NCBI RefSeq assembly: GCF_003814555.1
Contig: NZ_RKQN01000003.1
Span: forward strand, 169,611-233,610
DNA: 64,000 nucleotides
Direction of reading: 5' to 3'
From: Vulcaniibacterium tengchongense
GTDB taxonomy: Bacteria > Pseudomonadota > Gammaproteobacteria > Xanthomonadales > Xanthomonadaceae
The notes under the pieces are model-generated. The model was not told the DNA's origin. It saw only the letters and a list, made by a program, of their open reading frames with translations, and did no database searches. The position numbers were made by a program, and so were the translations under genes. Shown here one piece after another: positions 1 to 10,463 of this stretch. The number at the start of each line of letters is the position of its first letter. Position 1 is the first letter of the stretch.

Positions 1-2
1 GC

Positions 3-99
3 CGGGTCTCATGGAATTTCGCCAGCTCTCTATTTAGCGGCTAAGTCATTGTTTTACGGTGCCTTTTTCGGCAATCGTCCCTATCCTCGGGTCTCATGG
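3..99. repeat. 12-bp direct repeat upstream of the integrase
   Basis: CGGGTCTCATGG occurs at 3-14 and again at 88-99, 85 bp apart, in the leader of the integrase gene. A near copy (CGGACTCATGG) lies at about 6716-6726 upstream of the AlpA-type gene. The shared placement makes a binding site for an element-encoded regulator or excisionase possible; no function is demonstrated. Confidence 0.5.
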
Positions 100-123
100 G
101 GGTTAATTAAATACCCCCGGAGG

Positions 124-133
124 TTTCACCCCC
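124..133 (+). repeat. Candidate integrase arm-type site, left end
   Basis: TTTCACCCCC at this position is repeated at the opposite end of the island (9991-10000 and inverted at 10047-10056). Short repeats shared by the two ends of an element are typical of integrase arm-binding sites. The run is C-rich and could partly be chance. Confidence 0.35.
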
Positions 134-158
134 CACCTAACCCCGAGGAGGTTTACAG

Positions 159-1376
159 ATGGCTAGCATACGCCTGACCGCGACGGCGGTCGAAAAGCTG
201 ACCCCGCCCGCTACCGGCCGCAAGGATGTCTATGATGCCGAAGTGCCCGGCCTAGTTCTTCGCATGTCGTCCTCCGGTGTCAAAAGCTGGAGCTTCACCT
301 ACCGCGTCGAGGGCAAGCCCCGCCGCCTGACGCTGGGGGCCTTCCCCGGCGTGTCATTGAAACTGGCCCGCGACCGCGCCCGAGAAGCCCGCGCCGCAGT
401 GCAACGGGGCGAGGACCCGGTAGAGGACAAGAAGACAGAGGAACGGGAGAAGCAGCTAAACGGCTTTGCCGCCTGCGCCCGCGACTATGTGGAGAAGTAC
501 GCCAAGCGCCGCCAGCGGACATGGGCCGAGACTGAGCGGGTCATGGAGAAGCTGGCGATCCCCGCATGGGGCGACAAGCCGGTGAAGGAGATACGGCGGC
601 GGGATGTGGTGGAGCTGCTGGACAAGGTAGCGGTGAAGACCCCGCACCAAGCGAACCGCCTCCGGGCCTACCTGTCGCGCATGTTCAAGTGGCTGATTGA
701 ACGCGAGGTGCTGGAGGTCAGCCCGGTCATGGGTGTAGCCCCTCGCATCAAGCCCTATGCCCGTAGCCGCATCCTCTCCGATGCTGAACTGGTTGCCTTG
801 TGGAAGGCTACCGAACGGCTGGGCGGCACCTTCGGCGCTTGCGTCCGTTACCTCATAACCACAGGGGTCCGCAGGGACGAAGCCTCCTGCCTCCGCTGGG
901 ACGAGCTGGACGGGCCTTGGGCTGCAATGCCCGCCTCGCGCATGAAAGGTGGGCGGGACTTCCGCGCCCCGCTATCCTCTACGGCCGTCTCCATCGTGGA
1001 GGGGATGCCCCGCTTCGAGAAGTGCCCCTACGTCTTCACGACCAACGGTCGCAGCCCGATTTCCGGCTGGAGCAAGACCAAGGAGAAGCTGGATAAATAC
1101 ATGAGCGAGGAACTCGGGGAGCCGGTCGCCGACTGGCGGCTGCATGACCTCCGGCGCACCCTCGCTAGCGGTCTAGCCGGGCTGGGCGTCCGGTCCGAGA
1201 TCATCAAACGCGTGCTGGGCCATGCCGCCAACTCCAACGATGTGACGGCGGTTCATTACAACTGGCACTCCTACGATGCCGAGGCCATGGCCGCCGTGCA
1301 GGCATGGGCCGACCACCTCGCCCGCCTCATAGAGCCCGAAGCGGTCGATACCCGCGAACTTTCGATGGCCGTCTAA
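159..1376 (+). CDS. P4-type tyrosine site-specific integrase
   Basis: This 405-residue recombinase should catalyse integration and excision of the island. The N-terminal 90 residues match the DUF4102 arm-binding domain of P4-type integrases, followed by a SAM-like core-binding domain (about 100-190). The catalytic domain shows R238 (TTGVRRDE), H329 and R332 (LHDLRR), H355 (VLGHA) and the likely nucleophile Y367 (VHYNW), so it looks intact. A strong GAGGAGG ribosome binding site lies 7 bases before the ATG. Its length is normal for the family. It points into the island from the left end, as expected if the attachment site lies just upstream of the window. Confidence 0.95.
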   Translation: MASIRLTATAVEKLTPPATGRKDVYDAEVPGLVLRMSSSGVKSWSFTYRVEGKPRRLTLGAFPGVSLKLARDRAREARAAVQRGEDPVEDKKTEEREKQLNGFAACARDYVEKYAKRRQRTWAETERVMEKLAIPAWGDKPVKEIRRRDVVELLDKVAVKTPHQANRLRAYLSRMFKWLIEREVLEVSPVMGVAPRIKPYARSRILSDAELVALWKATERLGGTFGACVRYLITTGVRRDEASCLRWDELDGPWAAMPASRMKGGRDFRAPLSSTAVSIVEGMPRFEKCPYVFTTNGRSPISGWSKTKEKLDKYMSEELGEPVADWRLHDLRRTLASGLAGLGVRSEIIKRVLGHAANSNDVTAVHYNWHSYDAEAMAAVQAWADHLARLIEPEAVDTRELSMAV

Positions 1377-1402
1377 GCGACCAGATTTTATAATGGCAGG
1401 TT

Positions 1403-2287
1403 ATGAAGCAGGATTTTGACCTATTCGCTGAAGAAGCGAAAACACTCGCTGAGCAGCTTCCGAGCAACCCTCGGAACCGCTGCGAAATTGTCGTGGGCGA
1501 CGCTCGCAGAATCTTGCATGAGATGCCCGAAGGACATTTTGATTGCGTCGTGACGTCGCCGCCCTACTGGGGGCTGAGGGATTACGGGATCGACGGGCAG
1601 ATCGGAGCGGAAACAACCGTCGATGAGTATATAGCGGACCTCGTGCGCCTGTTCCGGGAGGTCCGGCGCACCCTCGCCGACGATGGCACCCTGTGGCTGA
1701 ACATTGGAGACAGCTACACCTCCGGGGGGCGGACTTGGCGGGACGCTGACGCGAAGAACAAGGGCCGGGCGATGGACTACCGCGCCCCGACACCCGAGGG
1801 CTTGAAGCCAAAAGACCTTATCGGCGTTCCTTGGCGGCTTGCGTTTGCTTTGCAGGCTGACGGCTGGTACTTGCGCACCGACATTATCTGGAACAAGCCC
1901 AACTGCCAACCCGAGAGCGTCAAGGATCGACCGACCCGCGCCCATGAGTATGTGTTCCTGTTTTCCAAGTCGGAGAAGTACTACTACGACTGGCAGGCAA
2001 TCATGGAGCCAGCGGCGGACCCGAAGCAAAAGGCGAAGAACCGGCGCACCGTTTGGAACATCAACACCGAGCCATACCCCGGCAGCCACTTCGCCGTTTA
2101 TCCTCGGGCGCTTGTCCGTCTATGTGTTGCCGCAGGCTCCCGCGAAAACGGCCGCGTCCTCGACCCGTTCTTCGGGTCAGGGACGACTGGCGTTGTCTGC
2201 AATGAGCTGGGGCGGCAATGCGTCGGCATCGAGCTTAATGCCGAATATGCCGAACTGGCCCGCGAGCGGCTGTTACGCGGGCGCTGA
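1403..2287 (+). CDS. SmaI-like type II DNA methyltransferase (probable N4-cytosine, CCCGGG)
   Basis: This is a beta-class DNA amino-methyltransferase of 294 residues. The catalytic motif IV TSPPYW is at 51-56 and the AdoMet-binding motif I DPFFGSGTTG at 254-263, so the target-recognition part lies between them. TSPPYW is typical of N4-cytosine enzymes such as those that methylate CCCGGG. The convergent neighbour strongly resembles R.SmaI, which supports this specificity. It overlaps the endonuclease gene tail to tail by 15 bases. It would protect the cell and island from the cognate nuclease. The exact target is inferred, not shown. Confidence 0.88.
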   Translation: MKQDFDLFAEEAKTLAEQLPSNPRNRCEIVVGDARRILHEMPEGHFDCVVTSPPYWGLRDYGIDGQIGAETTVDEYIADLVRLFREVRRTLADDGTLWLNIGDSYTSGGRTWRDADAKNKGRAMDYRAPTPEGLKPKDLIGVPWRLAFALQADGWYLRTDIIWNKPNCQPESVKDRPTRAHEYVFLFSKSEKYYYDWQAIMEPAADPKQKAKNRRTVWNINTEPYPGSHFAVYPRALVRLCVAAGSRENGRVLDPFFGSGTTGVVCNELGRQCVGIELNAEYAELARERLLRGR

Positions 2288-3031
2288 ACCAAAGCTCCAG
2301 GTCGCATGCACCTTGCACAAGTCTTTGCGCAGGTGCTTGATCTGGAGCTTGCGCTCCGTCCCACCGTCGAAGTAAAGCGCATACTTGAGCTGACCGGCGG
2401 CATCCCGAACATAACCATAACCCGGCTGTGGGTTCTGCCGGCTGTTCGTGCAGACCTCAAGCTCGCAGTTGGCCGCCTCCAGCAGCAACGCCTTCGGAAT
2501 CTCGACCAGCTCATAACGGATCGTCGCCCCTTCGTCCTTCAAGCGGCGCAGGGTGAAGATGCGGGCATAGCTCTGCATGTGCTCAAGGAACAGATCGCGC
2601 AGCAGCGGCAGCTTCCATTCGCCCCGTCCCAGCTCCATCCACTTGCTAACGTGAATCGTGTCGTCCTTGATGGTTGCGGCTGCTTCGGTCTTGAGGCTGA
2701 CCGGGACGCCGCGAATGTCGATGTCGTGCCCGCGATTCGTCCTGCTCTTTACCAGCTGGGCCGGAATGCCCGACGCATTTAGCACCGACTCGAAAGCAAA
2801 CTCGAAGCGATCCTTGCTCAAGGCCTGACGGCTCCCGGCGTGGTGGCTCAGCAGTCGATCCCCGAGGGACGCCAGCACTGCATCAGTGACCACATCGGAG
2901 TCAGATGCGCGCCAGAAGGTGCAGGCAGCGCCGAACGCATGGACGGCCGACTTGACCCATTGCTGCTGCGCCGGAGTCAGACGACCCAGCGCCTCCAAAA
3001 GCTCTTGTTTTTCCTTATCCGTAAGACTCAA
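2273..3031 (-). CDS. SmaI-like type II restriction endonuclease
   Basis: This 252-residue protein resembles R.SmaI (CCCGGG, blunt cutter) along most of its length as I remember that sequence, including the segments IHVSKWMELG, YARIFTLR, LVEIPK, PGYGYV and YFDGG-ERKLQIKHL. A PD-(D/E)XK-like core is seen at GHDIDI (101-106) and SLKTE (112-116). The reading frame starts with TTG at 3031, preceded at a suitable distance by AAGGG; there is no earlier ATG, and the SmaI-like N-terminus begins here. A weak start codon may hold nuclease levels low. No controller (C) gene is visible beside it. Confidence 0.9.
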   Translation of the reverse strand: MSLTDKEKQELLEALGRLTPAQQQWVKSAVHAFGAACTFWRASDSDVVTDAVLASLGDRLLSHHAGSRQALSKDRFEFAFESVLNASGIPAQLVKSRTNRGHDIDIRGVPVSLKTEAAATIKDDTIHVSKWMELGRGEWKLPLLRDLFLEHMQSYARIFTLRRLKDEGATIRYELVEIPKALLLEAANCELEVCTNSRQNPQPGYGYVRDAAGQLKYALYFDGGTERKLQIKHLRKDLCKVHATWSFGSAPA

Positions 3032-3266
3032 CGCTTAGCCCTTGCTGTCATCATCAAAACAGCAGAGCATAAACGAGCGGCTGCAGTACGTCGATTGCCA
3101 GCGTGCCATGGCACCGGGCCAACACCCCGCCCCTGGCCCTCGTAACCGCGCTATACCGGGCGAACGGGCCTTGCCCCTCCCTACCCTATAGCCCCGGCCC
3201 TTGCCCCCCTTAAATCGCAGGTAACAAGGCCGGGGGCACCCCCAGCCGAACCCCGAACGAAAAGCA

Positions 3267-3300
3267 AAACGCCCAACCCCTTGTCAGGGCTGGGCGTTTT
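3267..3300. terminator. Bidirectional rho-independent terminator
   Basis: A long stem (AAAACGCCCA... paired with ...TGGGCGTTTT, loop TTGTCA) with A-runs on one side and T-runs on the other can stop transcription both ways. It lies just past the stop of the leftward five-gene operon and upstream of the endonuclease gene, insulating the restriction gene from operon read-through. The surrounding 3032-3324 gap holds no other gene I can support. Confidence 0.85.
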
Positions 3301-3324
3301 CGTTGAAGGCCAGCGGATTAGAAA

Positions 3325-3615
3325 TCAGGTCGCCTGATTTTGCTTCCACTTCTGGTACTGGGTCCGCGCCGTGAAGAAGGCGATGCCTTCTGCAACGCAG
3401 GCGGCAATGACATCCTTCCGCTTGGCCTCGGGCATCGAGTCGGCGATGGCCCAGACGCGCTTGACCGGGCTATCGACGGTGGAGGCATTGCGAGCCTTGA
3501 CCACAGGGGCGGGGGCTTCTTCCTGCTGGACTTCCTCGGCCTGCACTTCCGGGGCTGCTTCTTGGACTTCTTCGGGCTGGTCGTTCTTGGGGGCGCGGCG
3601 GTTGCGAGTTGCCAT
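3325..3615 (-). CDS. Hypothetical protein, acidic linker plus small conserved C-terminal domain
   Basis: This 96-residue protein has a basic N-terminus, a Glu/Gln/Ala/Pro-rich stretch (about 14-40) and a compact C-terminal part (about 46-92). That C-terminal part is clearly related to the C-terminus of the next gene upstream (3708-4190); both carry an SMP-A-(R)K--VI-AC-A-G motif followed by T-A-TQ. I choose ATG 3615 because AGGAG lies 6-7 bases upstream; the longer frame from 3711 lacks this. It is the last gene of the leftward operon. The function is unknown. Confidence 0.7.
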   Translation of the reverse strand: MATRNRRAPKNDQPEEVQEAAPEVQAEEVQQEEAPAPVVKARNASTVDSPVKRVWAIADSMPEAKRKDVIAACVAEGIAFFTARTQYQKWKQNQAT

Positions 3616-3707
3616 GATGATTCTCCTGTTAGGCGGCGGGGGCCTGTTCCCCTGCCCATGAGGTGAATAATCAAGCTGGGCCGCAGCAGTGGCACTCCGA
3701 ACGACGA

Positions 3708-4190
3708 TCAATTGTTCGACTCAGCAAGCGCCTTTCGATACTTGCGGACTTGGGTGGCGGCGGTCGCCGGATTGACCCCAGCAGCAATGCAGGCGCGGAT
3801 TACCTCGCTGGGCTTGGCATCGGGCATGGTCGCGGCGATAGCCCGGACCATCTCGACGGGGCGGATAGTGGTCGAAGGCTGCGCGGGGGGACAGGTACCC
3901 CATCGCAGGGACTCCGGGGGCTTGGCCGGGGCCAGTCCGGCGAAGGCTCCCGGCTTGATCTGCCCCGCAAGGAACATACGGCGAACCCGCTCCGCTAGGT
4001 CCAGGTCGATCCCTGCAAAGTCGGCAATCAGCAGGTAGTCGGGCGACTCTACCCATTCCCGATCCTGCTCCTGTAGCGCCTGCATGAAGACCGCGCCGAA
4101 CAGGTTATGGATGGCTTCGGTGGGCGTGTGTCGCAGGTCCGGCGTCAGCGGCGGCAAGTCCGGCCCCTCCTTTGTGATGCGCGGGGCCAT
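3708..4190 (-). CDS. Hypothetical island protein sharing a C-terminal domain with its neighbour
   Basis: This protein has 160 residues. The first 100 residues show no recognised motif; a proline-rich link leads to a C-terminal domain at about 108-155 that matches the C-terminus of the 96-residue neighbour, pointing to duplication of a small domain, perhaps nucleic-acid binding. The ATG lies 4 bases after the stop of the upstream gene, so the two are probably translationally coupled. I do not recognise a function. Confidence 0.75.
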   Translation of the reverse strand: MAPRITKEGPDLPPLTPDLRHTPTEAIHNLFGAVFMQALQEQDREWVESPDYLLIADFAGIDLDLAERVRRMFLAGQIKPGAFAGLAPAKPPESLRWGTCPPAQPSTTIRPVEMVRAIAATMPDAKPSEVIRACIAAGVNPATAATQVRKYRKALAESNN

Positions 4191-4194
4191 GCGG

Positions 4195-4611
4195 TCACCA
4201 GCGGGGCAGGAAGACGGCGGCGGTCTGGTCGAGGTCGAGGCCGGGAGCTTGTTGGTCGAGCGCCGCCTGTAGCGTTTCGCTGGGATCGGTCAGGTCGATA
4301 AGCTGGACGCCCGGAAAGCGGCCATCCTGCACCATCCAGACGATATGCCCGAGGCGCTGCGCCTTGTGGTCTTGGCTGGCCGGGGCGCTGGTGTCGATGG
4401 CTGGCAGGTCGGCGGGTGCCTGAGCTGCCGGTATCCACAGGGGCAGGGCTTCGGGGTCGAAGGTCGGTGCAGGCGCTTGGTCGAGGGCCAGCGGGACGAG
4501 GACGGCGAACGGGCCGACGAGGGTATCGCCGCCAAGCGGAGTCTTCCGGGGCTGGCTGCTGGCCTTGATCCAGCCCGCGAGTGCGGTAATGGCTTCTTGT
4601 GCTGCGCTCAT
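4195..4611 (-). CDS. Hypothetical island protein
   Basis: This 138-residue protein has Ala/Pro/Asp-rich character and no membrane segment or catalytic motif that I recognise. AGGA lies before the ATG, and the gene sits between the 229-residue gene (5397-4714) and the domain-sharing gene at 4190 in the leftward operon. Coding-like third-position GC supports a real gene. The function is unknown; a role in packaging or satellite biology can only be guessed from its neighbours. Confidence 0.65.
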   Translation of the reverse strand: MSAAQEAITALAGWIKASSQPRKTPLGGDTLVGPFAVLVPLALDQAPAPTFDPEALPLWIPAAQAPADLPAIDTSAPASQDHKAQRLGHIVWMVQDGRFPGVQLIDLTDPSETLQAALDQQAPGLDLDQTAAVFLPRW

Positions 4612-4713
4612 TTTCGGGAGTCCTGATAGTTAATCGGGTGGCAAGCGTGACGAACTGCCAAGGCTTTCAACACCTTCCAGTCGCCCCGCCCGTTCCGGGG
4701 GTGCGAATCGGGG

Positions 4714-5397
4714 TTAGATTTCCACCCGCTTGCTGGCCTGCTCCGCGAGGCTGGGCGTGTAGAAGCTGGGCGCTACCTTGCGGATCGCAGCCGCGTACTT
4801 GCCCGCCAGCTTCGACAGGCCGACGCTGTTGCTCAGGCTGGTGTAGATGTCCGGCTTGCGCGATTGCAGGGCTTCAAGGCGCAGCCCTTCATGGACGCTT
4901 GGCGCCAGCCCGACGAGGAACGAGGGCGAGTGCCAGAGGACAGCCGCAACGTCGTCGTTGTCCGCCATCGCCTTCTTCACTTGCAGCATTCCTTCCGGGG
5001 TCTTCGCCTGCTCGCGCACCCAGCTACGAATCTCGCTGTGCAGGGCGCTGCGGTCCGAGCTGGGGCCGAGATGCAAATCAGCCTGCGCCAGCGCGGACGT
5101 TTTCAGCTTCTCGGCGTGGGCCTCCAGCGCGGCCTTCGACTTCTCCAGATGACTGGTCACCTTCTCCGCAAGCTGCTTGGCCGCGTCATGCTTGGCCGTC
5201 TCGGTTCTGGTGGGATCATTGACGAGGGCGGCGACCTTCTTGGCTGCGTCCTTGAGAACGATGTGGGCGCTCTGAACGTCCGGCGCGACATGGGCGTCGA
5301 TGGCCTTGGGGTCTCCGAGGATGGCGGACAGGCCGCTATCCAGCTGGGCGGTGTCGAGGAAGCTGGTGGCATCCGGCGAATTGACGAGGTATTGCAT
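4714..5397 (-). CDS. Hypothetical island protein with Ala/Lys-rich helical middle
   Basis: This is a soluble 227-residue protein with an Ala/Lys/Glu-rich, probably coiled-coil segment around residues 50-105 and a mixed C-terminal part. An AAAGGAG ribosome binding site lies 1-2 bases from an ATG at 5403 but about 7 bases from the ATG at 5397, so the second ATG is the better start. It lies 12 bases downstream of the DUF5681-like gene in the same operon. I find no homologue by memory; a structural or scaffold-like phage role is possible but unsupported. Confidence 0.7.
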   Translation of the reverse strand: MQYLVNSPDATSFLDTAQLDSGLSAILGDPKAIDAHVAPDVQSAHIVLKDAAKKVAALVNDPTRTETAKHDAAKQLAEKVTSHLEKSKAALEAHAEKLKTSALAQADLHLGPSSDRSALHSEIRSWVREQAKTPEGMLQVKKAMADNDDVAAVLWHSPSFLVGLAPSVHEGLRLEALQSRKPDIYTSLSNSVGLSKLAGKYAAAIRKVAPSFYTPSLAEQASKRVEI

Positions 5398-5409
5398 GGT
5401 CATGCTCCT

Positions 5410-6030
5410 TTAATTGCGAACTTGTTGCTTGAGGGCGTTTTGTTTGCCCAGTGCAGCGGCTTCCCAGTCATCGAGGGAGCCGCCAAGGGGAACCAGCATC
5501 ACCCCGCCCGGAAGGGCTCCGGCGTCGGTGGCTTTCTGGATGGCTTCAATCTGCTGCTGCCGCATATCCGCGAGGATTTGCGTTGCTGCGACGCGGGCGG
5601 CGCTTTCGACCATGCTCACCACATCGCGGCCTTCCTCGGGCGTGACGTGCCCATCGAGGACGGCGCGGAGCAGGGTTTCGACGGGGTTCTCGCCTTCCTT
5701 TCGTTCCAGCTTGGGAAGGGGTCGACCCTTGCGCGGCGGAATGATCCGGTCGAGGCAGAGCTTGAGCGCGGTGGTATCGCCCTTGAGGGCAAGGTCGATC
5801 GCCTTGCGGGTTAGCTTTTCGCCTTCGCCTTCCAGCAGGTTTTCGCAAGCAATCGTCACCTTGTTCCGACTGCCGCGAGGCCGACCGGGGGCGCCCTTCA
5901 TAAAGCGCCCGGTCTTCGGATCAATGGGATGGCCGTTGCTGGCGACGATGGGCGCGTCTGCCTGCGCTTCTGCTTCGGCCTGTTGCTGCGCCAGTTCTTC
6001 CGGCGTCAGCTTCCAAGGCGGTGTTTTCAT
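5410..6030 (-). CDS. DUF5681-like phage-associated protein
   Basis: Counting from ATG 6030, this 206-residue protein contains the signature GRFMKGAPGRPRGSRNK, typical of DUF5681 proteins, which are often encoded beside phage terminase genes and may bind DNA. The remainder is charged and helical. It is the first gene of the leftward five-gene operon. The frame is open to an ATG at 6147, but that region looks less coding and neither start has a clear Shine-Dalgarno. No terminase large subunit is present in the window, so a link to packaging is inference. Confidence 0.7.
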   Translation of the reverse strand: MKTPPWKLTPEELAQQQAEAEAQADAPIVASNGHPIDPKTGRFMKGAPGRPRGSRNKVTIACENLLEGEGEKLTRKAIDLALKGDTTALKLCLDRIIPPRKGRPLPKLERKEGENPVETLLRAVLDGHVTPEEGRDVVSMVESAARVAATQILADMRQQQIEAIQKATDAGALPGGVMLVPLGGSLDDWEAAALGKQNALKQQVRN

Positions 6031-6219
6031 TCTGGGCAACCAATAAAATTCAGGGTTGCCGCTATGTTCCCGCCGTAAAAATGGTGGGGCACCGGGAAAG
6101 TTGATCCCTTTCGGTGCCAAGGCCCTACCCCAGCCCCTACCATCCATTTACCAGCTACCCCGGAGCCGCCCTGAGGAAACTGGTTGGCGCGCCGATCAAA
6201 GCCCGGCGCGCTGCTCCTG

Positions 6220-6256
6220 AAACCCCCGATTGCGAGAGTGATCGGGGGTTTCTTTT
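6220..6256 (+). terminator. Rho-independent terminator with no plus-strand gene upstream
   Basis: AAACCCCCGAT and ATCGGGGGTTT form an 11-bp perfect stem around a 10-base loop, followed by CTTTTT on the plus strand. No plus-strand gene lies before it for nearly 4 kb, so it may end an antisense or small RNA, or block read-through toward the regulator region. Confidence 0.75.
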
Positions 6257-6500
6257 TGCCTGTCTCACCCCCTCGGGCACCCCTCTCGCCGCCGCAGACT
6301 GCTAGAGCGTTGATTACTCAATGATTTTTCGACTAGACCTGCGAACTAAATATGAGGCGGCCTGTTTTCCGGCATGACCACACAACGCGCCGCCATTTGC
6401 GCCAAGGCAAAATGGTTGGCGTTGGTGCCGCCGTCGCGGGCCTTCCCTGTCGTCCGTAAGGATGCCTATCTAGAGGACGCGTCATCGTCTGGAACTAGCC

Positions 6501-6730
6501 GGGATATTTCTGCATATCCCATATCCCGGGCGGGATATCCCAGCGGGACGGGGGCCGGGATGTCTGGGACCTCCCCCTTTAGGGGGTCCCCATATCCCGC
6601 CCGTCCTTTCGTCCGCAGTCTTGGGGGTAGGCTGGGACATGCGGGCCATCCTTAACTTGAGAGTCGTTCTCATTTGCTCTCAAAGAGGATCTAAAAATCA
6701 TTTGGGGTCTTTCCCGGACTCATGGGATAT
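6501..6730. repeat. GGGATAT repeat cluster, origin- or operator-like
   Basis: The heptamer GGGATAT occurs at 6501-6507, 6532-6538 and 6724-6730 and inverted at 6514-6520, 6521-6527, 6535-6541 and 6592-6598, making nested inverted repeats such as GGGATATCCC (6532-6541). Between 6560 and 6600 there is also a C/G-rich imperfect hairpin flanked by arms of the same repeat. The cluster lies in the 780-bp non-coding gap (6031-6809) ahead of the alpA-like and primase-helicase genes. Iteron-type origin or repressor operator are both plausible. A CCCGGG site (6525-6530), the presumed target of the island's own methylase, sits inside it. Confidence 0.6.
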
Positions 6731-6764
6731 TTGGGTTGTGCGCATGTAGATCAGTAGGGCGGTG

Positions 6765-6800
6765 CCCGGAAACCGTAGCGCACGGTTTAACGTTTCCGGG
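6765..6800 (+). promoter_or_regulatory. Inverted repeat overlapping the alpA-like ribosome binding site
   Basis: CCCGGAAAC (6765-6773) and GTTTCCGGG (6792-6800) form a 9-bp perfect inverted repeat ending just before the ATG at 6810. Its right arm overlaps the GGGAGA ribosome binding site. It could be an operator for autoregulation or an RNA hairpin that hides the start. Confidence 0.5.
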
Positions 6801-6809
6801 AGAACTGCC

Positions 6810-7010
6810 ATGCAAGACAAGACCATCCTGCGCGCGGCTGACGTCGTCGCAATCCTCAACATCGCCAAGCCCACCTTCTACCGCTGGATCAAGGAAGGCC
6901 GCTTCCCCGCTGGGGTCAAGTACGGCCCGAACACGACCGGATGGCCCCGCCATGTGGTTGATGGCTGGCTTGCAGCCAAGGAATCCGCCCAGCCCGCCCC
7001 GGCGCAGTAA
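6810..7010 (+). CDS. AlpA/MerR-like winged helix-turn-helix regulator
   Basis: This 66-residue protein has the AlpA-type layout: a short helix-turn-helix at about 7-33 (LRAADVVAILNI, then TFYRWIKEGRFP) and a short wing with W45 and a VDGWLA helix. In P4-like and PICI satellites such proteins activate integrase/excision or replication genes. ATG 6810 is chosen because GGGAGA lies just upstream; an in-frame ATG at 6762 lies inside the inverted-repeat leader. It is followed 17 bases later by the primase-helicase gene, so the two probably form one transcript. Confidence 0.88.
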   Translation: MQDKTILRAADVVAILNIAKPTFYRWIKEGRFPAGVKYGPNTTGWPRHVVDGWLAAKESAQPAPAQ

Positions 7011-7027
7011 GAACAGCGGAGGCGGCT

Positions 7028-9013
7028 ATGACAACAAGATTCGAGTCCTCGGGCATCCCCGAGGAACTGAAGGCTCCCGCCCGTTGGGTGGCATGGCGCT
7101 ACGTGGAGCGCGACGGCCAGCCCAAGCCGGCGAAGGTGCCGACCGATCCGAAGACGGGGCGCAATGCCAGCCCGACCGATCCGGCCACATGGGCGGACTT
7201 CCAGACCGCCGAGGCATACGCCCGCCAGCATGGCGTCGGCATCGGCCTTGTCCTGTCGGCGGAGTCGGGCCTTTGCTGCATTGACCTGGACGCGACCAAT
7301 GACCCCGCCGTGCAGGGCGTCCATCGCGGCATTCTCGACGAGGCGGCAGCGGCTGGCGCATACGTCGAAGCCTCGCCCAGCGGCAAGGGCTGGCATATCT
7401 GGGTGCAGCATGACGAGGCAGTGACCGCGCCTCGCGCCGTTCCCGGCGTCGAGTGCTACACCGCCGAACGCTTCATAACTGTTACTGGCGCGAGCGGACA
7501 AGGGCGCGTTGTGCCGATGCCGGATTCGCTGGCCTCTCGGCTGGCCCCATGCTTCGCGGCCCCGGTCGCCCCTGTGGTGGCTGCCGCATCCGTCGAGCTA
7601 CCGGCCATCACAGACGAAGCCCTCTGGAAGCAGGCGGCGGAACACTTCGGCGACCGCTTCCAAGCGTTCTGGACCGGGCAATGGGAAAGCCTGCACCCGT
7701 CGCAGTCGGAAGCCGATCACGAGTTCGCCATCATGCTGGCCCGCTTCACTTCGGACCCGGACCAATGGCTGCGCTTGTTCCTGCAAAGCGGGATGGCGGC
7801 GACCTTGGAGCGGAAGAAGACCAAGCGGCATATCCAGCAATACCTGAGCACGACCTACGACAAGGCGCGGCGCATCGCGGACGACGAGAACTACCACATC
7901 ACCTTCGGGCGGCGCGTTGCAGAAGCCCTCATCGCCCGCTGGAACGCGATGAAAGCGTCACTTGCGGCAAACCTGTTGGAGCCGTTCGCCGAGTTCATCC
8001 AGAAGAAGGTTTCGGTGCTCAAGCTGGTTCGCGGCATCCTCGGCGAAGGCGGCCTGTCGGTCCTCTACGGTGCCCCCGGTGCGGGTAAGTCGTTCCTCGC
8101 GCTGGACCTTTGTTACGCCGTCGCCACGGGGCAACCATGGATGGGGAGGGACACCCGGCAGGGGCCGGTTATTTACGCCGCTGGCGAGGGCGTACCGGGG
8201 CTGCGGATGCGCGGCAAGGCCATCGCCAAGGTGAAGGGCTGCGACGCGCCCAACATCTTCTTTCTACCGCATTCCCTGAGCACGCCGGACGAGGGCGAGA
8301 AGATGGCAATGGTGCTGGATCAAGTGACGGCCCGCTGCGGCGTCCCGCCCGCCTTGCTCATCATCGACACCCTGAGCCGCTTCTTCGGCGAAGGCGACGA
8401 CGAGAACTCAGCCAAGGACATGAAGCGGTTTGTCGGTGCCATCAGCGCCCTCATGGCGAAGTGCCCGACGCTGCACGTCATGATCGTCCATCACTCCGGC
8501 AAGGACGCGGACAAGGGGATGCGCGGATCGTCGGCCCTGCAAGGTGCAGCCGATACCGTCATCCAGTGCCGCAAGGATGGCGACGCACACCGCGCCGTTG
8601 TCGAGAAGCAGAAAGACGGGCAGGACAACATCCCGCTGCCCTTCGCCCTCGATCAAGTGGAGCTTGGCGAAGACGAGGACGGGGAGCCGATTACCTCCTG
8701 TGTGGTCGTCCATGACCATGAGGGCAAGGCGCGCCCCTTGTCTGGCTTCGCCGCAACCGGAGTCAAGATTCTTCGCTTCCTCCGGCAGTCGGTAGTTGAG
8801 GCCAACGGGATAGCCTCCTACGCCGACCCGATCCCGCTTCAGGCGTATCACAACCAATGGTATCTGGAGCGCCCCGGCGAGAAGCCGGATTCCGTCCGCA
8901 AGACAGACCGCCGCGTATTGAACAACCTGCGCGAGATGAAGCTGATCGAGTGGAACGGCGGCGAAAGCCCCATCCGTCTGCTGCCCGCCTTCGATGGCGT
9001 CACGATTGAATAA
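7028..9013 (+). CDS. Phage/satellite primase-helicase (RepA-type AAA ATPase)
   Basis: This 661-residue protein has two parts. The N-terminal part (about 15-165) resembles prim-pol-like replication domains: a WVAWRY start, a KVPTDPKTG segment, the acidic motif IDLD (85-88) and a SPSGKGWHIW motif (116-125). The C-terminal part is a RecA-like hexameric helicase (RepA/AAA_25 type) with Walker A GAPGAGKS (348-355), a Walker B-like LLIIDTLSRF and the downstream HHSGKD and GSSALQGAADT motifs. It should drive autonomous replication of the excised element, possibly from the repeat cluster upstream. Confidence 0.9.
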   Translation: MTTRFESSGIPEELKAPARWVAWRYVERDGQPKPAKVPTDPKTGRNASPTDPATWADFQTAEAYARQHGVGIGLVLSAESGLCCIDLDATNDPAVQGVHRGILDEAAAAGAYVEASPSGKGWHIWVQHDEAVTAPRAVPGVECYTAERFITVTGASGQGRVVPMPDSLASRLAPCFAAPVAPVVAAASVELPAITDEALWKQAAEHFGDRFQAFWTGQWESLHPSQSEADHEFAIMLARFTSDPDQWLRLFLQSGMAATLERKKTKRHIQQYLSTTYDKARRIADDENYHITFGRRVAEALIARWNAMKASLAANLLEPFAEFIQKKVSVLKLVRGILGEGGLSVLYGAPGAGKSFLALDLCYAVATGQPWMGRDTRQGPVIYAAGEGVPGLRMRGKAIAKVKGCDAPNIFFLPHSLSTPDEGEKMAMVLDQVTARCGVPPALLIIDTLSRFFGEGDDENSAKDMKRFVGAISALMAKCPTLHVMIVHHSGKDADKGMRGSSALQGAADTVIQCRKDGDAHRAVVEKQKDGQDNIPLPFALDQVELGEDEDGEPITSCVVVHDHEGKARPLSGFAATGVKILRFLRQSVVEANGIASYADPIPLQAYHNQWYLERPGEKPDSVRKTDRRVLNNLREMKLIEWNGGESPIRLLPAFDGVTIE

Positions 9014-9025
9014 GGAGAAGCAACC

Positions 9026-9967
9026 ATGAACGCTATTCACCTTCCCGGGCTGGCCGGAGAGATTGCCCAGCACCTCAATGAACAGGCCCCCGTCGCCACT
9101 CCCCGGATGGCAATGGGCGGGGCCATTGCCCTGCTGGGGGCCATCGTCGGCGCTGGCTGGGAGTTGCCGCATATCGGCCTGTTCCCTGAGTCGGCCGTGC
9201 GCCGCGTCCTGCCGCACCTTGAGCCGGAGGACTTCCCGACGACCCAGCCCATCGGGCAAAGCGTCATGCTGGTAGCCGACCCGGCGCACGGCAAGGGCGG
9301 AATCATCGAAGGGGTCGAGGCCCTGCTGGGCGGGCTGCTACGGCAGCGCCCGGACACCTCGGCCATTGCCCAGCGGCTGCTGACCATCCAGCACTTCAAC
9401 CATCTGGCGCTCGCCGGGATGGAGCCGGAACCCGAGGATGTGGATAGGGTGCGCGGCATCGTCAAGCCTGCGACCTTCGACCGGCTGCTAGACGGCTCCC
9501 TGTTCCTGCTGGCCGAATCGACCCCGGATGACTTCGATTACCTGCTGCCGCATTGGTACGAGAGCAGCCCGTTCTACGGCCAGTGCCTGATGATCCGGCA
9601 TCATGGGCCGAAGGGCGAGAAGAACCGACAACCACATGGGCAGCCGTCCGCCTTGCTGCTGGGGCGTCTCGCCGAGCTGGCGGACCTGGCCCAAGCCGGG
9701 CGAAAGGTTCTGGTCGAAGTCACCGAGGACGCCGCCGCTTGGTATCGCCTGTTCCTGCGCTTGGACATGGACACCTACAGCGAGCATGGGCCGGTCGGGC
9801 TGGAGGGCGAATGGGCGCGGCAATCGTTACAAGTGGCGGCCATCGTCGCGGTGGGGCTGGACCCGCTGCGCCCGGTCATCACTGCCGGGGTGTTCCGGCT
9901 TGCCAGCGACCTTGCAAGCGAAGGCGTCCGGCTGGCCCGCGCTGGGCTGGGGGTGGTTGGGGTGTAA
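9026..9967 (+). CDS. Uncharacterised partner of the primase-helicase
   Basis: This 313-residue protein starts 12 bases after the helicase stop, with AAGGAG ahead of its ATG, so it belongs to the same operon. The first 50 residues include a small Gly/Ala-rich helix (AMGGAIALLGAIVGAG) reminiscent of DUF3987-type replication proteins. A GKGG stretch at about residues 89-92 is not a complete Walker A. The rest is predicted helical and soluble. I cannot name its function; a replication or regulatory accessory role is inferred only from position. Confidence 0.75.
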   Translation: MNAIHLPGLAGEIAQHLNEQAPVATPRMAMGGAIALLGAIVGAGWELPHIGLFPESAVRRVLPHLEPEDFPTTQPIGQSVMLVADPAHGKGGIIEGVEALLGGLLRQRPDTSAIAQRLLTIQHFNHLALAGMEPEPEDVDRVRGIVKPATFDRLLDGSLFLLAESTPDDFDYLLPHWYESSPFYGQCLMIRHHGPKGEKNRQPHGQPSALLLGRLAELADLAQAGRKVLVEVTEDAAAWYRLFLRLDMDTYSEHGPVGLEGEWARQSLQVAAIVAVGLDPLRPVITAGVFRLASDLASEGVRLARAGLGVVGV

Positions 9968-9990
9968 CCCCTCGGGGCCTGGAAAAGGTG

Positions 9991-10071
9991 TTTCACCCCC
10001 GACTGCACCCCCGGCCTTTGGCTGGCCTTGGTGGGGGCTGGGAAACGGGGGTGAAAAGACTGCACCCCCGG
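9991..10071. repeat. Candidate integrase arm-type sites, right end
   Basis: TTTCACCCCC (9991-10000) and its inverse GGGGGTGAAA (10047-10056) match the left-end copy at 124-133. In addition GACTGCACCCCCGG is repeated directly at 10001-10014 and 10058-10071. The set lies between the last island gene and the tRNA attachment region, where arm sites are expected. Confidence 0.4.
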
Positions 10072-10079
10072 AAAGCGAA

Positions 10080-10113
10080 AGGGGCTACGGATCAACCGTA
10101 ACCCCTTGATTTT
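10080..10113 (+). terminator. Terminator of the island replication operon
   Basis: AGGGGCTACGG and CCGTAACCCCT pair around ATCAA with one mismatch, followed by TGATTTTA. It would end rightward transcription from the alpA-like/primase operon before the tRNA gene, which is read from the opposite strand. Confidence 0.65.
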
Positions 10114-10115
10114 AT

Positions 10116-10191
<76 letters not shown>

Positions 10192-10203
10192 GAAACCTTT
10201 ACC

Positions 10204-10247
10204 AGCGCATTACGAATGCGCCGCTCTACCAGCTGAGCTATTCCGGC
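10204..10247 (-). pseudogene. 5' half of the host tRNA-Thr(CGT), cut by the island
   Basis: Read on the minus strand, this is GCCGGAA, the D-arm GCTCAGCTGGTAGAGC and a complete anticodon arm GCGCA-TTCGTAA-TGCGC. It then runs into unrelated sequence, with no T-arm or matching acceptor strand. It is the 5' part of an original tRNA-Thr(CGT). The missing 3' part should lie beyond the left end of the window, which places the crossover at or just after the anticodon arm. Confidence 0.88.
10205..10221 (-). other. Probable attR core in the tRNA anticodon arm
   Basis: The anticodon stem-loop GCGCATTCGTAATGCGC is the last recognisable host tRNA sequence before island DNA. Tyrosine integrases often use the symmetric anticodon arm as crossover site. 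The precise core cannot be set without the left junction. Confidence 0.55.
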
Positions 10248-10463
10248 CAGGAGCGGAATTGTAGGCGGCCGCGGCGGAGAGGGTCAAATGCGGGCGCCCC
10301 GGCATCCGCGCGGCGCCTCCGGCGCCTCCTGCCTGGCTTGCCGGCAAACCCGGCATGGCGGACGATGGCCTCCGGCATGGGGGCTGCCGGCGCACGCCGG
10401 AGCGGCATCGCCGGATCGAACTTCGGCCCCTCCCGGGCCGGCGAACACGGGGAGGCAGATTCG

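Follow-up and report, generated by a model that had tools for sequence, protein, structure and literature searches.

What does a dense cluster of the heptamer GGGATAT do in the gap in front of the replication genes of an integrative island? A first-pass annotation had described seven copies in both orientations, strong palindromes and an embedded CCCGGG site, and had read the cluster as either an iteron origin or a repressor operator. Coordinates given below are positions in the window, which is the whole 64 kb stretch of DNA that was analysed, unless a locus label is given.

The array lies in a satellite-like integrative island

A 14-bp repeat occurs at window position -19 and again at 10206, with 10.2 kb in between. 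Joining the outer flanks yields a complete tRNA-Thr(CGT), both in this genome and in the locus of Betaproteobacteria bacterium SCN1 (L019). As the tRNA is restored in this way, the element represents a 10.2 kb integrative island with a phage-satellite gene kit. The host tRNA-Thr(CGT) is split by the island within the anticodon stem-loop, where the 14-bp core is located, and the island brings its own complete tRNA-Thr(CGT) at 10116-10191; the layout in L019 is identical (tRNA-Thr region: window -19 to 10250 and 10116-10249; L145 9947-9994). None of the seven other tRNA-like matches retrieved from the genome has the anticodon CGT, so that the genome may have no intact copy apart from that of the island. 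Repeats of TTTCACCCCC / GCACCCCC flank the attachment site (9991-10070 and 124-133) and are kept in L019. Integrase arm sites cluster around attP, and the repeats are likely such arm sites and possibly a second origin candidate.

The island starts with genes for an integrase (159-1376), an N4/N6 methyltransferase (1403-2287) and, on the minus strand, a SmaI-family endonuclease (2273-3031). Several leftward ORFs follow up to the DUF5681 gene on the minus strand (P0006; 5410-6030), whose product matches the terminase small subunit family phrog_5334 (E 8.7e-8). On the plus strand, alpA (6810-7010; 66 aa, Phage_AlpA / HTH_17) precedes the gene for P0001 (7028-9013; 661 aa), a primase-polymerase fused to a RepA-like helicase. 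Directly after the latter lies a primase-like fragment (9026-9967; phrog_3022, E 1.2e-16), possibly the remnant of a second replication protein. Gram-negative PICIs are about 10-15 kb in size, and the island has the integrase, AlpA, primase/replication genes and specific attachment site by which they are recognised. PICI transcription is unidirectional and rightward; here the endonuclease gene, the DUF5681 gene and several ORFs are directed leftward, and we therefore class the island as satellite-like and not as a PICI.

Heptamers in both orientations border an AT-rich stretch

A window-wide count bore out the description of the array: GGGATAT occurs seven times in the 64 kb, in both orientations and exclusively within 6501-6730, between the DUF5681 gene and alpA. 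Dinucleotide shuffles of the whole window contained 1.72 copies on average, and 1 of 100 shuffles reached seven anywhere. When 64 kb of sequence was simulated 60 times with a first-order Markov model, no 7-mer reached seven copies within 230 bp, and the peak density per simulation was four to six copies.

The spacing of the heptamers is irregular. Heptamer 1 (6501-6507, plus) and heptamer 2 (6514-6520, minus) form an inverted pair with a 6-nt spacer, and heptamer 3 (6521-6527, minus) follows head to tail. Heptamers 4 (6532-6538, plus) and 5 (6535-6541, minus) are the two halves of the palindrome GGGATATCCC, which spans 6532-6541; heptamer 6 is located at 6592-6598 (minus) and heptamer 7 at 6724-6730 (plus). 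The palindromes, too, proved to be present, since besides GGGATATCCC there are perfect 12-nt arms at 6527-6538 / 6592-6603 and a CCGGGATAT / ATATCCCGG pair at 6499 / 6521. A further dyad, GGGACCTCCCCCTTTAGGGGGTCCC, occupies 6566-6590. With the one-base variants GGGATGT (6557-6563, plus) and GGGACAT (6634-6640, plus), the motif is roughly GGGAYAT. Between the second variant and heptamer 7 lies an AT-rich stretch (6660-6720), as is typical of iteron origins, which by its base composition is a candidate melting site; the GC content is 43-45% at 6660-6749 compared to 72% at 6540-6599. The right-hand heptamer set consists of one exact copy and one variant.

All heptamers are kept in the only close relative found

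L019, in which P0001 is 96% identical, was the only close relative found. High identity begins abruptly at about 6475 and spans the array, alpA, the helicase gene and the right end of the island, and the two islands differ on the DUF5681 side. Conservation in related islands had been named as a check on the array, and all seven heptamers are kept in L019, together with one extra copy to make eight. Thus, a repeated short motif is conserved in a related replicon, as expected of an iteron origin, if in one close relative only. The two DNAs differ at 15 positions within 6501-6730, none of which falls into the 45 heptamer bases (chance P 0.04), a sparing that may support an origin but is weak alone. 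The differences include the spacer bases 6510-6512 between the unchanged heptamers 1 and 2. At 6566-6590, the alignment gives GGGACATATCCCCTTTAGGGATGTCCC for L019, which is still a dyad, rebuilt with other bases, and holds the eighth GGGATAT. Identity amounts to 89% at 6501-6600, compared to 95.6% in the genes, and to 75% at 6731-6810.

Searches with the array DNA gave no match among phages and plasmids and only the own genome among 397 genomes of the order. ATATCCCATATCCC occurred in at least 120 stretches of viral contigs; among those listed, none apart from the island itself and L019 had more than four heptamers per 230 bp. A search of open-licence papers returned none on the GGGATAT array or on the helicase-array pairing described below.

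The embedded CCCGGG site is best taken as a by-product

The CCCGGG is indeed embedded in the array (6525-6530), as one of 41 in the window, and forms where ATATCCCGG abuts GGCGGGATAT. To presume it to be the target of the island methylase, from the SmaI family name only, is reasonable because the adjoining gene codes for a SmaI-family endonuclease. As in SmaI-type restriction-modification (R-M) systems, this endonuclease (PF17411, E 1.4e-66) is encoded next to an amino-methyltransferase (PF01555, E 3.2e-56). The idea that methylation of the site could affect replication found no support, since L019 has CCCGGA instead, lacks the R-M cassette (1328-3115) at the same place and keeps the heptamers nonetheless, and since GC-rich palindromes are avoided generally. 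On the same grounds we rejected CCCGGG as a selected site. The cassette itself appears, from the comparison of both islands, to be a recent gain or loss of cargo.

Within the island, CCCGGG was observed twice versus 9.9 times expected from its sub-words, and all eight GC-only 6-bp palindromes tested are also rare (e.g. CCGCGG, 0 versus 9.1; GGCGCC, 2 versus 12.9). This avoidance is found in both islands (window 1-10206; L019 3771-13180) and is absent from the flanking chromosome, a pattern suggesting that many restriction systems were encountered in the past. The CCCGGG in the array would best be taken as an accidental by-product of adjacent heptamers.

P0001 carries a predicted C-terminal winged helix

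The N-terminal part of P0001 matches NrS-1-type primases, and its middle part is an AAA_25 helicase. As the full-length model (mean pLDDT 61.8) was poor except in the helicase core, the C-terminal 93 residues were modelled separately (pLDDT 80.6, pTM 0.73). The resulting domain (8732-9010, plus) is a predicted winged helix, although with weak Foldseek E-values (best 0.016), and we propose it as the reader of the heptamers. P0001 would thereby provide what an iteron origin calls for, a nearby initiator with a DNA-binding domain. The domain was found in its own genome only among 395 genomes of the family, and a comparison with the helicases that go with arrays gave no significant relative, the best match (E 0.025) being the array-less L141. 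With this domain an orphan apart from L019, any rule linking motif and protein can be checked for GGGATAT itself in L019 alone. Two of the helicase relatives end in a recognisable helix-turn-helix.

Related helicase genes are mostly paired with a repeat array

The helicase part of P0001 has many distant relatives, whose genes have clusters of short repeats in mixed orientation close to the stop codon, with motifs such as AACCGGAC, GGCGACAA, GACAATC, TGCGGAA, AAGTGAG and others. The survey covered loci L190-L349, L003-L018 and L155-L170; four of 37 loci of the first set, from genomes, had no tblastn match and were left out, and 7-mers made up of only one or two different letters, such as CACCCCC, did not enter the counts. 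In the first set, 23 of 32 relatives had at least four copies of one 7-mer within 300 bp around the stop of the helicase gene; of the remaining 300-bp windows from these loci, 16 of 418 did, including the one with the GGGATAT array itself. Two viral groups, near-duplicates included, gave the same picture: an array was present at the helicase stop in 52 of 74 loci versus 37 of 1532 control windows in group 1 (the best 80 of 505 matches), and in 68 of 78 versus 66 of 1854 in group 2 (the best 80 of 591), where all ten exceptions had an array 674-1277 bp further down. At one genome locus the array was displaced by about 750 bp, and its 7-mer GGCGACA is shared with a relative that has a look-alike C-terminal domain.

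For a non-redundant set, the loci were thinned to 97, and an array was defined by at least five copies within 1.5 kb on either side. Among loci with enough sequence on the respective side, 55 of 85 had an array downstream and 3 of 63 upstream; at least six copies in the 1.5 kb upstream occurred in 0 of 63. The AAA_25 (RepA-like) helicase genes of the phages and satellites examined are therefore mostly paired with a short-repeat array just 3' of the gene. At the P0001 helicase stop itself, the best 7-mer count in 300 bp is two.

The array motif follows the C-terminus of the helicase

Similarity of the array motifs was compared with that of the proteins. Motif similarity correlated with that of the last 100 helicase residues (Mantel r 0.31, P 0.0005, n 52), and did so with the ATPase domain removed (r 0.25, P 0.0005); for the ATPase domain with the C-terminus removed, the correlation was 0.12 (P 0.011). 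The first set, from which L010, L013, L015, L017 and L141 (partial or divergent matches, no array) and the array-less L160, L165, L166 and L167 were omitted, gave partial r values of 0.18 (P 0.005) for the C-terminus and 0.20 (P 0.014) for the ATPase domain. At the 11 loci with a nearby AlpA, the partial r was 0.53 (P 0.0006) for the C-terminus and 0.36 (P 0.009) for AlpA. By these correlations, the C-terminus appears to be a better predictor of the array motif than the ATPase domain or AlpA.

A candidate origin and its rivals

On balance we lean, with modest confidence, towards the array being the replication origin of the island, recognised by the C-terminal winged helix of P0001. In favour are the array as such, its conservation in L019, the AT-rich stretch, the domain make-up of P0001 and, as shown here, the general pairing between helicase and array, with a motif that follows the C-terminus of the helicase. 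After excision of the island, copies of P0001 would bind the GGGAYAT heptamers through their winged-helix domain and assemble on both heptamer sets, whereupon the AT-rich stretch between the sets would melt, the RepA-like helicase ring would unwind the DNA and the N-terminal primase-polymerase would prime. We infer P0001 binding, melting and origin function from the features described above. Against an origin stand the position of the array 5' of alpA, versus 3' of the helicase gene in nearly all relatives, the lower conservation of the array core compared to the genes, the small right-hand heptamer set, the orphan status of the P0001 C-terminal domain among the helicases that go with arrays, the correlation of the motif with AlpA and the presence of another set of repeats, CACCCCCG, which follows the helicase gene at a distance of roughly 1 kb. 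The origin might also sit in the alpA control region, with one heptamer set for two functions. Occupancy by the primase-helicase would then start replication while shutting or opening alpA, so that the island's copy number and its induction switch would be coupled; in relatives the two functions are separate, at opposite operon ends, and we regard such dual use as rather doubtful.

Of the two original readings, the origin is thus the better supported and the operator remains its main rival. AlpA, a predicted HTH protein, or another island regulator would bind the heptamers and control alpA and thereby the replication genes. This is supported by the place of the array immediately 5' of alpA, with heptamer 7 in the alpA promoter region, and by the correlation of the motif with AlpA in the 11 loci; moreover, AlpA of EcCICFT073 activates its own promoter (PMC6092414). 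However, the arrays of relatives are found by the helicase stop codon rather than by alpA, the C-terminal domain predicts the motif better than AlpA does, seven to eight copies without fixed spacing exceed the need of a simple operator, and a promoter scan of 6000-7100 gave no sigma-70-like promoter, all of which makes an operator fairly improbable. It is less probable still that GGGATAT is regulatory and the CACCCCCG cluster (9994-10070), 3' of the replication genes, is the origin. Its four copies in both orientations are kept in L019, and their distance from the helicase stop, about 1 kb on the 3' side, resembles that of the displaced arrays in the ten viral loci among the best 80 of 591 matches. 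Yet these are only four exact octamers, and TTTCACCCCC also occurs across the attachment site at 124, so that the copies surround attP like integrase arm sites. Very unlikely, finally, is a packaging or structured-RNA element, as which the strong fold (z-scores against shuffles -3.65 for RNA and -3.46 for DNA) and the terminase-small-subunit-like neighbour P0006 could be read. Such z-scores are expected from inverted heptamers alone, two Rfam matches in 5900-7100 are below the cut-off and none above it, and the conserved block from about 6475 goes with the replication genes, whereas the DUF5681 side differs between islands.

If the array is the origin, sequence data suffice to locate the origin of this island, and its relocation would show that an origin is movable relative to its initiator gene. 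The underlying rule would then be a general one, in that the RepA-like helicases of the satellites and phages examined are mostly paired with an array that follows their C-terminal domain; it would make origin prediction and initiator specificity testable in many uncharacterised elements by swaps of C-terminus and array.

Comparison with known replication systems

In E. coli PICI origins, sets of repeats flank an AT-rich stretch (PMC6092414, Fig. 2 legend). The same paper reports that a pri-rep-ori segment drove plasmid replication, and places the published origins immediately 3' of the initiator gene (PMC6092414). The array resembles the EcCICFT073 origin described there in that short repeats flank an AT-rich stretch, that a primase/helicase gene is adjacent and that the island encodes an integrase and AlpA, and departs from it in its position 5' of alpA, its motif GGGAYAT and its partly leftward island (PMC6092414). 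The SaPI origin likewise lies 3' of rep (PMC6092414). Iterons and an initiator with helicase activity are common to SaPIs and the present island, but the helicase of P0001 is RSF1010-RepA-like (AAA_25). The C-terminus of SaPI Rep reportedly sets iteron specificity. The alpha protein of P4 fuses a primase, an SF3 helicase and a DNA-binding domain, and the iterons of P4 ori/crr are short and occur in both orientations. P0001 similarly fuses primase, helicase and a putative DNA-binding domain and goes with short candidate iterons; its helicase, however, has the AAA_25 / RSF1010 RepA fold (RecA-fold) instead of SF3. The RSF1010 RepA helicase (1g8y, 1nlf, 1olo) is the nearest solved relative by sequence (E 3e-6) and among the best by fold. 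In RSF1010, iteron binding (by RepC) and priming are tasks of separate proteins, whereas in P0001 all replication parts appear to be fused.
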